Positions 19,921-30,246 of a DNA stretch of 64,000 nucleotides are shown here, piece by piece. This stretch comes from Blastococcus sp. DSM 46786 (lineage in GTDB: Bacteria; Actinomycetota; Actinomycetes; Mycobacteriales; Geodermatophilaceae): NCBI RefSeq assembly GCF_900109665.1, contig NZ_FOAO01000017.1:1-64000 (forward strand), read 5' to 3'. The notes beneath the pieces were generated by a model. It did no database searches, was not told where the DNA came from, and saw nothing but the letters and a program-made list of their open reading frames with translations. Every line of letters begins with the position of its first letter. Position 1 is the stretch's first letter. A program made the position numbers and the translations under genes.

Positions 19921-19936
19921 CCGGGTGGACACCCGT

Positions 19937-19952
19937 TCGAACGTGTGTTCGG
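19937..19952 (+). promoter_or_regulatory. LexA-type SOS box before the radical SAM gene
   Basis: TCGAACGTGTGTTCGG matches the actinobacterial/mycobacterial LexA box (TCGAAC-N4-GTTCGA) at all half-site positions except the final base. It ends 8 nt before the ATG at 19961, where bound LexA would block transcription. Confidence 0.75.
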
Positions 19953-19960
19953 ATGGGGGC

Positions 19961-22096
19961 ATGCGGTGGGACGCACAGCGGCTGGACCTCGACGAGCCCG
20001 GGGCGCTGCCCGGCATGCCCAGCATCCGGGGCCTGCTGCGCAGCGTGCAGGTGCCGGAGTTCCCGGGGCTGACCTTCCACGAGGTGCGGTCGAAGAGCGC
20101 CCTGAATCGCGTGCCGGGCGAGTCGGCGATGCCCTTCCCGTGGAGCATCAACCCCTACCGCGGCTGCTCGCATTCGTGCGTGTACTGCGTAGGGGGAGAC
20201 ACACTCGTATTGACGCCGGACAGCCGCCAGGTGCGCATCGCAGATCTCACGGTCGGCGACCGGATCGTCGGGACGGAGAAGCGCGGCCGGTACCGCTTCT
20301 ACGTGGAGACCGAGGTGCTCGCGCACTGGTCGACGGTCAAACCGGCCTACCGTGTCACCCTCGCCGACGGCACCACCTTGGTGGCGAGCGGTGACCACCG
20401 GTTCCTCACCGGACACAGTTGGAAACATGTCACCGGCACGGGCTCGGGAATCGGCCAGCGTCCGCACCTCACCCCCAACGACGAGATGCTCGGCTTCGGC
20501 CTCACCGCCGCGACGCCCAAGGAGACCGCTGAGTACCGGCGCGGATACCTCACGGGGATGATCCGCGGGGATGCGATGCTCGGGACGTACGCGTATCGGC
20601 GGGCGAACGGACGACCGGGCCTCGCCCACCGGTTCCGGCTCGCGCTGATCGACCTCGACGCGCTCCTCCGCACCCAGGGGTATCTGGAGCAGGAGGGCAT
20701 CGCCACTGCATTCTTCGCCTTCACGCCGGCGTCGGAGAGACGCCGGGCCATGCACGGAATACGCGCTTCGCGAGGTCAAGCCGTTGCTGACATTCGGGCT
20801 CTGGTGCAGTGGCCCACCGATCCGTCGGCCGAGTGGAGCCGCGGCTTCCTCGCCGGCATCTTCGATGCGGAGGGGAGCCGGAGCCAGCACATCATGCGCG
20901 TGAGCAATGCGGACGACGAGATGCTCACCCGGACCAGCGCGGCATTCGCCGCACACGGCTTCGACAGCATCCTGGAGGACCCAGGACGACCCAACCGGGT
21001 GCGCACCGTCCGTCTGCGCGGCGGACTGAAGGAGCACCTGCGGTTCATCCACCTGGTCGATCCCGCCATCCGCAGGAAGTGCCGACTGCAGGGCACCGCG
21101 ATCAAGAGCACGGCCGACCTGCGGGTGGTCAGCGTGGAGGACATCGGCCTCGAGGTGCCGATGTACGACATCACCACGGGCACCGGTGACTTCATCGCCA
21201 ACGGCGTGGTGAGCCACAACTGCTTCGCCCGCCGGACGCACGAGTGGCTGGAGCTCGACTCCGGCCGGGACTTCGACACGCAGGTCGTCGTGAAGACCAA
21301 CCTGGTCGAGGTGCTGCGGCGGGAGCTGGCGCGGCCGTCGTGGCAGCGCGAGCACGTCGCCCTGGGCACCAACACCGACCCCTACCAGCGGGCGGAGGGC
21401 CGCTACCGGCTCATGCCCGGCGTCATCGACGCCCTCGCCCGGTCGGGCACCCCGTTCTCGGTCCTGACGAAAGGCACGCTGCTACGCCGCGACGTGCCGC
21501 TGCTGGCGGCCGCCGCCCGCGACGTGCCGGTGGGGCTGGGCGTCTCGATCGCCATCTGGGACGACGACCTCCACGCCGCGCTCGAGCCCGGCGTACCCAC
21601 GCCCCGCGCGCGGCTGGACCTGGTCCGCGCCCTCGCCGACGCCGGGCTGCCCTGCGGCGTCTTCCTCGCGCCCGTGCTGCCCGGCCTCACCGACTCCCCG
21701 GAGCACCTCGACGCCGCGCTCGACGCCGTCGCCGCGGCCGGGGCGACCGGGGTGACGGTGATCCCGCTGCACCTGCGTCCGGGCGCGAGGGAGTGGTTCA
21801 TGGCCTGGCTGGGCCGCGCCCACCCGGAGCTGGTGCCGCGGTACGAGCGGCTCTACGCCCGCCGGGCCTACGTGCCGGCGGAGTACCGCGCCTGGCTCAC
21901 CCGGCAGGTGGCACCCCTGCTGGCCCGGCACGGGTTGGACCCGCGGTCCGGAGGTGCGGCGCGCCAGGTGGAGGTCACCGGTGTGCCGGGCGACGAGGAG
22001 GTGGGCTTCCCCAGCGGCAGCCTGCCGTCGCGCACGCCGGGTACGCCGGCCACGGGTGCGACCACCGCCCCGGCCGAGCAGCTGACCCTCCTGTGA
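19961..22096 (+). CDS. SOS-associated radical SAM protein (Rv2578c/SplB-like) interrupted by an intein
   Basis: 711-residue precursor; after removal of residues 76-420 the host protein is 366 residues. The N-part MPFPWSINPYRGCSHSCVY leads into the CxxxCxxC motif (C69, C73, then position 76), and the C-part continues FARRTHEWLELDSGRDFD with the rest of a TIM-barrel radical SAM fold (VALGTNTDPYQ, SVLTKGT). This matches the COG1533 SplB-like group that includes M. tuberculosis Rv2578c; a DNA repair role is inferred from kinship to spore photoproduct lyase and from the LexA box. ATG at 19961 is preferred over the GTG at 19925, which would place the SOS box inside the gene. Unspliced protein would lack a usable iron-sulfur site. 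Confidence 0.93.
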   Translation: MRWDAQRLDLDEPGALPGMPSIRGLLRSVQVPEFPGLTFHEVRSKSALNRVPGESAMPFPWSINPYRGCSHSCVYCVGGDTLVLTPDSRQVRIADLTVGDRIVGTEKRGRYRFYVETEVLAHWSTVKPAYRVTLADGTTLVASGDHRFLTGHSWKHVTGTGSGIGQRPHLTPNDEMLGFGLTAATPKETAEYRRGYLTGMIRGDAMLGTYAYRRANGRPGLAHRFRLALIDLDALLRTQGYLEQEGIATAFFAFTPASERRRAMHGIRASRGQAVADIRALVQWPTDPSAEWSRGFLAGIFDAEGSRSQHIMRVSNADDEMLTRTSAAFAAHGFDSILEDPGRPNRVRTVRLRGGLKEHLRFIHLVDPAIRRKCRLQGTAIKSTADLRVVSVEDIGLEVPMYDITTGTGDFIANGVVSHNCFARRTHEWLELDSGRDFDTQVVVKTNLVEVLRRELARPSWQREHVALGTNTDPYQRAEGRYRLMPGVIDALARSGTPFSVLTKGTLLRRDVPLLAAAARDVPVGLGVSIAIWDDDLHAALEPGVPTPRARLDLVRALADAGLPCGVFLAPVLPGLTDSPEHLDAALDAVAAAGATGVTVIPLHLRPGAREWFMAWLGRAHPELVPRYERLYARRAYVPAEYRAWLTRQVAPLLARHGLDPRSGGAARQVEVTGVPGDEEVGFPSGSLPSRTPGTPATGATTAPAEQLTLL
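20186..21220 (+). mobile_element. LAGLIDADG intein within the radical SAM cysteine motif
   Basis: The 345-residue intein begins with Cys (CVGGDTLVL) and ends VVSHN, followed by Cys as the +1 residue, the classic class 1 splice junctions (penultimate His, terminal Asn). Block B is near ASGDHRFL. Two dodecapeptide motifs of a LAGLIDADG homing endonuclease are seen: GYLTGMIRGDA (Asp204 of the precursor) and GFLAGIFDAEG (Glu304), both with the catalytic acid, so the endonuclease looks active. Splicing joins CSHSCVY to CFARRT and restores CxxxCxxC; the +1 Cys is itself the third iron-sulfur ligand. The reading frame is uninterrupted. Confidence 0.93.
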
Positions 22097-29476: not shown

Positions 29477-30246
29477 CCGGGCGCGTCCTGGTGGTCATCC
29501 CCACCTACAACGAGGCCGAGAACCTGGCCCGGGTCCTGGACCGCCTGCACGCCAGCGTCCCAGCGGCGCACGCCCTGGTGGTCGACGACGGCTCGCCCGA
29601 CGGCACCGGCGCGATCGCCGACGAGCGGGCTGCCGCGGACCCGCGCGTCCACGTGCTGCACCGCAGCGCGAAGGCCGGGCTCGGCCGCGCCTACGTGGCC
29701 GGCTTCCGCTGGGCCCGCGAACACGGCTACGACGTGCTGGTCGAGATGGACGCCGACGGATCGCACCCCCCCGAGCAGCTGCCCGACCTGCTCGCCGCCC
29801 TGGCCGACGCCGACCTGGTCCTGGGCTCGCGCTACGTCGACGGCGGCCGGGTCGAGGACTGGCCGGCGCACCGGCTGCTGCTGTCGCGCGTGGGCAACCG
29901 CTACACGCGCTGGGTGCTGCGGCTGCCGCTGCGCGACGCGACCAGCGGTTTTCGGGCCGCCCGGGCCGAGCTGATCGACCGGCTGCCCTTCGACGAGGTG
30001 GCCAGCGAGGGGTACTGCTTCCAGGTCGACTGGGCCTGGCGGGCGCTCCGGGCGGGGGCCCGCGTCACCGAGGTGCCCATCACGTTCACCGAACGCGCGT
30101 TCGGCCGGAGCAAGATGAGCGGCTCGATCGTTGGAGAGGCGTGGGCCCGCGTGACCGTGTGGGGCGTGCAGGACCGGCTGGCCGACTGGCTGCCGGGCCG
30201 AGCGCGCCCGCCGGTGACCCGCCCGGCCGACCCGGCCGGGCGGTAG
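29473..30246 (+). CDS. ppm1: Polyprenol-phosphate mannosyltransferase (Ppm1/DPM synthase)
   Basis: 257 residues, GTG start overlapping the lnt stop. GT-A fold of family GT2: VVIPTYNEAENLARVLD, VVDDGSPDGTGAIA, EMDADGSHPPEQLP (DxD), DATSGFRAARAELID and ITFTERAFGRSKMS. It makes polyprenyl-phosphate-mannose for mannosylation of lipoglycans and exported proteins. No membrane domain, as in the catalytic part of actinobacterial Ppm1, which pairs with Lnt. Confidence 0.95.
   Translation: MTGRVLVVIPTYNEAENLARVLDRLHASVPAAHALVVDDGSPDGTGAIADERAAADPRVHVLHRSAKAGLGRAYVAGFRWAREHGYDVLVEMDADGSHPPEQLPDLLAALADADLVLGSRYVDGGRVEDWPAHRLLLSRVGNRYTRWVLRLPLRDATSGFRAARAELIDRLPFDEVASEGYCFQVDWAWRALRAGARVTEVPITFTERAFGRSKMSGSIVGEAWARVTVWGVQDRLADWLPGRARPPVTRPADPAGR

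Follow-up and report, generated by a model that had tools for sequence, protein, structure and literature searches.

An intein that interrupts the iron-sulfur motif of a putative DNA damage gene raises the question of what it does there, and whether it is a mobile element, a switch for the enzyme, or a burden. Such a gene is present in a stretch of 64,000 nucleotides (the window) from Blastococcus sp. DSM 46786 (contig NZ_FOAO01000017.1, positions 1 to 64,000, forward strand). An open frame of 723 codons at 19925-22096 translates as RGCSHSCVY up to the insert, C(1)VGGDT...GVVSHN(345) for the insert itself, and C(+1)FARRTHEW after it. The following features can be placed on it.

19939 to 19950, plus strand: LexA (SOS) box GAACGTGTGTTC, 11 bases before the likely ATG at 19961 (motif count, conservation)
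19961 to 20185, plus strand: N-extein, from MRWDAQ... to CSHSCVY, with the first two Fe-S cysteines (profile alignment, genome-search match)
20186 to 21220, plus strand: class 1 LAGLIDADG intein of 345 aa, Cys1...His344-Asn345 (junctions, profiles, conservation, fold)
20387 to 20398, plus strand: block B, S68-G-D-H71, an SxxH variant of TxxH (S68 and H71 invariant in 27 full-length relatives)
20538 to 20582, plus strand: first LAGLIDADG helix RRGYLTGMIRGDAML, catalytic Asp at residue 129 (aligned to I-DmoI in the model)
20837 to 20881, plus strand: second LAGLIDADG helix SRGFLAGIFDAEGSR, catalytic Glu at residue 229 (model alignment, conservation)
21167 to 21220, plus strand: C-terminal intein blocks F and G, DITTGTGDFIANGVVSHN (sequence, conservation)
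21221 to 22096, plus strand: C-extein, with Cys+1 (the third Fe-S ligand) FARRTH..., the remaining radical SAM barrel, and the stop (Pfam Radical_SAM, fold)

The host gene was explored through protein profiles. The whole frame matches NCBIfam NF038136 (rSAM_Rv_intein) with 855.6 bits, where the cut-off is 700, and all 574 of the 574 profile positions are covered. The host part matches NF038135, the model for Rv2578c/SplB-type radical SAM proteins, with 523 bits (curated cut-off 430). Pfam Radical_SAM was also matched (1.4e-13). The likely ATG is where the genome-search match to the host gene begins, and the alignment to NF038136/NF038135 begins at residue 13 of the frame. After splicing, CSHSCVY and CFAR together contain the CxxxCxxC motif. 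When a relative lacking the intein was modelled (pLDDT 67.8), its fold matched those of radical SAM enzymes, MiaB and spore photoproduct lyase among them. The structure search found no solved structure close by sequence to the host enzyme. By its sequence, the gene is a member of the Rv2578c/SplB-type radical SAM group, and it is predicted to hold a [4Fe-4S] cluster and to cleave SAM.

The earlier note had called the gene "SOS-type," and the LexA box upstream agrees with this. Two sites for the LexA-box motif are present in the window, where 0.39 would be expected. The same palindrome was found at the same distance upstream of 101/101 genes of the window's family, Geodermatophilaceae, in which the Fe-S motif was found, and the box also stands upstream of recA and lexA in the window's genome. 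A stricter form, TCGAACNNNNGTTCG, was matched about ten times across the genome, including upstream of recA and lexA, and its reversed control gave zero matches there. The second GAACNNNNGTTC site of the window (30091-30102) lies within a glycosyltransferase-like coding frame and is probably due to chance. Since intein-free relatives also have the box, the SOS link is that of the host gene, with the intein or without it. Judged by the box, the gene is a probable member of the LexA regulon, and induction by damage is predicted. Similar genes are known. The available parts of three sources describe SplB-type radical SAM genes under SOS regulation (PMC8565304, PMC3323433, PMC9380542). These are splB (COG1533) of Bacteroidetes and alpha/beta-Proteobacteria and vnz_31145 of Streptomyces, which, like the gene in the window, carry an SOS box. 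According to the available part of PMC9380542, mitomycin C induced one LexA-site-bearing radical SAM gene of Streptomyces about 20-fold. Inteins in SOS-regulated splB genes or in vnz_31145 are not discussed in the available parts of these sources (PMC8565304, PMC3323433, PMC9380542).

The insert lies between the Tyr and the third Cys of CSHSCVYC, immediately before the third iron-ligand Cys. Its C-terminal junction is SHN/C, a His-Asn end plus a Cys at +1. C1, S68xxH71, D328, H344, and N345 are unchanged across 27 full-length relatives. RGD is found at the first LAGLIDADG helix in 29 of 30 full-length 345-aa relatives, and DAEG at the second in 28/30. The Pfam models Intein_splicing and LAGLIDADG_3 gave weak, sub-threshold matches. 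The AlphaFold model of the intein (pLDDT 74.6, moderate confidence) was matched by Foldseek to PI-PfuI, PI-SceI, and I-DmoI. These best structural matches have the LAGLIDADG fold in common with the window intein at about 12-16% identity, but their targets differ from its own. The GC content is lower in the intein (67.7%) than in the host gene (76.3%). All 52 intein-free alleles of the family run from the third Cys directly into [FY]AR with no insert, and it is because they read straight through that the +1 Cys can be taken as the third Fe-S ligand. From these residues, the insert is a class 1 intein, and autocatalytic splicing is predicted. With both LAGLIDADG acids and an I-DmoI-like fold, it is most likely an active homing endonuclease as well, for which cleavage is predicted.

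Much of this had been claimed in the earlier note. Its 345-residue class 1 LAGLIDADG intein at 20186-21220, with intact junctions, is confirmed by the frame, the profiles, the residues, and the fold. Its placement of the intein inside the Fe-S CxxxCxxC motif, with the +1 Cys as the third ligand, is borne out by the 52 empty alleles, which are contiguous there. Compared with these intein-free, Rv2578c-like genes, the intein falls inside the motif and not outside of it. The intein's own Cys1 does complete the motif in the precursor, as was also stated. However, this is automatic, because a class 1 intein with Cys1 that is placed before a Cys always yields it. The arrangement is already catalogued in NCBIfam. 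NF038136, named as an "intein-containing Rv2578c family radical SAM protein," has the same host family and the same intein, and the window copy is a further member of this known intein family. NF038136 is a naming model, and, going by the profile lengths, the 345-aa form of the window would be 88 residues longer than its approximately 257 intein positions. Among the literature searched, no paper on NF038136 was found.

The history of the intein can be explored through its distribution in the window's family. The survey covered 102 genes, apparently from Blastococcus, Geodermatophilus, Klenkia, and Modestobacter. Full-length inteins (344-345 aa) were found in 31 of these and deletion derivatives (138-273 aa) in 14, and 52 were empty. 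The remaining genes were frameshifted (3), broken by a contig end (1), or had the Fe-S motif deleted in frame (1). On the host tree, presence and absence required 30 changes, compared with a mean of 32.3 for shuffled labels. Thus, intein presence is no more clustered on the tree than shuffled labels are. The 14 deletion derivatives cost 14 changes and are therefore scattered tips. The other 6 genes in the subclade of the window are all empty. In the intein tree, the window's intein clusters with inteins of another genus (96% support), although a single clade for the inteins of its genus was not rejected (AU p 0.28). Of 435 pairs of family species, 0 showed an intein whose synonymous divergence was clearly smaller than that of its host gene. 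Therefore, no recent transfer was caught, and the transfers are either not recent or not sampled. Purifying selection is seen in both parts (median dN/dS of 0.24 for the intein and 0.24 for the extein), and both catalytic acids are retained in nearly all full-length copies. The family pattern is that of a homing cycle, in which the allele enters, decays, and leaves repeatedly.

Some of the damaged alleles can be described individually. The intein frameshifts in L099, L101, and L103 (genomes G054, G089, and G049) would destroy the host enzyme, and they are real or are sequencing errors. A split intein was considered for these three genes and rejected. The two halves are close neighbours within a single gene, in shifted frames, and are therefore read as frameshifts or sequencing errors. 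In L100 (genome G050), the in-frame deletion takes out the segment of the Fe-S motif that spans the intein insertion site. This could be the scar of an imprecise repair after cutting by the endonuclease. On contig 33 of the window's own genome, DnaB (L002) also holds an intein. Related species live with frameshifts in the intein, with the Fe-S motif deleted, or with the gene lost altogether, and the enzyme is therefore not essential. Splicing could then be inefficient in this strain and the enzyme largely inactive, with the intein as a burden on a broken gene. However, all of the splicing residues are present and invariant, and intein and extein are both under purifying selection in the family. 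A broken gene is highly improbable.

It is very likely that the SplB-like radical SAM gene of the window is SOS-induced and carries a mobile homing intein, one that is most likely active. Going by the box and the published regulons, LexA would repress the gene, and DNA damage would switch on its expression. Residues 1-345 would be excised through the class 1 pathway of Cys1, Asn345, and Cys+1. CSHSCVY would be rejoined to CFAR, and the [4Fe-4S] motif would be restored. The unspliced enzyme should be inactive because its barrel is split. The LAGLIDADG domain would cut alleles that lack the intein within these conserved codons of the motif, at the empty TGCGTNTAC/TGCTTCGC site, and the cut allele would then receive a copy of the intein through RecA repair. 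Because the intein is expressed from the SOS promoter of the enzyme, its endonuclease would appear when RecA is induced.

The earlier note had suggested that splicing could be coupled to redox state or metal availability. Oxidation or a metal would tie up the extein Cys-3 and the intein Cys1 (CVYC), and splicing would halt. The oxygen-sensitive enzyme would then be made only in a reducing cell. MoaA is a radical SAM enzyme, like the host protein of the window. In the available part of a review, a disulfide between an extein Cys and Cys1 is reported to block splicing of the MoaA intein of Pyrococcus abyssi (PMC10663303). The redox-trapped Ssp DnaE intein (3NZM; also 4GIG) has a Cys at -3 and Cys1 in FCPGC, with the same CxxC spacing as in CVYC. 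A disulfide was shown there; for the window, a pairing of Cys-3 with Cys1 would be a prediction from the spacing. Mycobacterial DnaB inteins are inhibited by oxidation and zinc (PMC6195587, PMC7360933). In addition, Cys-3 is retained in every intein-bearing allele with a readable N-junction. However, Cys-3 is an Fe-S ligand and would be retained in any case, and its spacing from Cys1 matches automatically because the host motif dictates it. In vitro, chemistry of this kind could be seen with any Cys-class intein and still bring the host no benefit. Half of the family is without the intein, and its presence is unclustered. In the window's family, a switch selected by the host is also at odds with the occurrence of deletion and frameshift derivatives, with the retention of the endonuclease acids, and with the fact that no further intein Cys is needed. 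Five of the 14 deletion derivatives hold Cys1 as their only Cys. Cys299 was considered as a conserved redox partner and was rejected; it is invariant in the full-length forms and missing from several of the deletion derivatives. Resting on the spacing and the MoaA review, the redox idea is chemically plausible, but the distribution does not support it. Conditional splicing is an unlikely explanation for the locus.

The intein is also found outside of the family. The earlier note had proposed a survey of homologues for inteins at the same site, and the intein-alignment search found the same intein at the same Cys in at least seven phyla: Actinomycetota, Pseudomonadota, Myxococcota, Omnitrophota, Planctomycetota, Gemmatimonadota, and Rhodothermota. 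Single phylum assignments could be wrong, because several carriers are metagenome bins. Carriers outside the family have 50-58% identity across the whole intein, and their host sequences diverge in the expected way. In the phylum sample, 30 of 296 genomes matched. Among the proteobacterial carriers, 4/12 possess a CTGT-N8-ACAG (E. coli-type LexA) box upstream. These boxes (L171, L188, L196, and L198) lie 219-278 bases before the Fe-S motif region. The search for viral carriers found no close one, only weak matches of 28-34%, one of them in a terminase-like frame. This is one old mobile intein allele.

Two Actinomycetota genera of a related family, outside the window's own, possess copies with a dead endonuclease. 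In the first, g42, the intein was found in 56/60 genomes, with one copy split over two contigs. It is near-fixed and mostly 292 aa (L111-L115, L206, L287-L312, L320, L322, and L323). In 32 of the copies read, the intein is exactly 292 aa, the first LAGLIDADG acid is replaced by Gly, and the second by Ala or Ser. Across 14 disjoint species pairs, replacement and silent differences numbered 136/360 in the dead domain, 106/310 in the splicing domain, and 159/571 in the C-extein. With site numbers taken into account, the ratios are about 0.13, 0.13, and 0.11, respectively. The constraint on the dead endonuclease domain in g42 is on a par with that on the host enzyme. In the second genus, g49, all 25 of the 25 genomes carry the intein in a 282-284-aa form. 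Both acids are absent by motif from 19/20 intact copies read; in the remaining copy (L286), only the second of the two motifs could be matched. The median pairwise dN/dS is 0.43 for the dead domain, 0.24 for the splicing domain, and 0.22 for the C-extein, so that the dead domain is less constrained here.

Five species of g49 gave no match to the host family, but in each of them the intein frame has stayed in its place downstream of the LexA box, at the same locus. In two of these, L268 and L274 (genomes G540 and G541), the ends of the intein are intact and the box is kept, and the Fe-S part and the whole C-extein are gone. The other three, L262, L263, and L264 (genomes G189, G534, and G544), have in common a 301-aa intein-derived frame directly behind the box. 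The C-terminal His-Asn has been lost from it, as have the His of block B and the two endonuclease acids. Between the three frames there are 8-11 replacement differences and at most 29 silent ones, with a dN/dS of 0.11-0.18, where neutrality is about 1. By a simple pairwise method, in one clade of three species, the 301-aa frame is under purifying selection. At such values it is therefore probably translated and useful. Pairwise differences revealed no significant constraint in the two-species group. Nothing else in the intein series is as unfamiliar as the orphan frames.

Homing could thus have been lost in some lineages and the intein kept for a role of the dead domain or of the whole intein, a role that would serve the cell or splicing. 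The near-fixed g42 copies, with their acids gone and the dead domain constrained, are consistent with this, as are the g49 copies, carried by every genome, and the intein frames that outlived the host gene, three of them constrained. However, this does not describe the window's copy, because it has both acids and its family is patchy. Furthermore, the g49 dead domain is less constrained than its splicing domain, the two-species orphan group lacks significant constraint, and a dependence of HINT on HEN for splicing, reported in the available part of PMC8966425, could explain g42. Domestication is possible but doubtful as an explanation. The same source describes HEN-inactive VMA inteins (PhoVMA) and HINT-HEN mutualism, in which a dead LAGLIDADG domain is kept, like in the g42 and g49 copies (PMC8966425). 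Both dead endonuclease domains and a HINT-HEN dependence had been described before, so that the g42 case is less novel. No description of genus-wide fixation with extein-level constraint, or of an intein frame that outlives its host gene, was found in the available part of PMC8966425. A bolder reading is that the allele was domesticated more than once. In the two Actinomycetota genera, it would have ceased to home and be held by selection on the dead domain, and in one clade it would have become a stand-alone LexA-controlled protein after deletion of the host enzyme. The window copy would be a still-mobile, ancestor-like form whose endonuclease is made with RecA under SOS. This is rather unlikely as a whole.

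The wider family is an unusually complete series from a mobile to an apparently domesticated intein. At one Fe-S ligand, it includes apparently active homing, deletion derivatives, empty sites, fixed dead-nuclease copies, and orphan frames. With this allele, it can thus be asked within a single host gene whether inteins are parasites only or can turn into regulators. Because of the Cys-3/Cys1 pair, the idea of a redox switch can be put to a direct test in an enzyme that is sensitive to oxygen, and the LexA box that intein and enzyme share prompts the further question of whether homing is synchronized with the induction of RecA.
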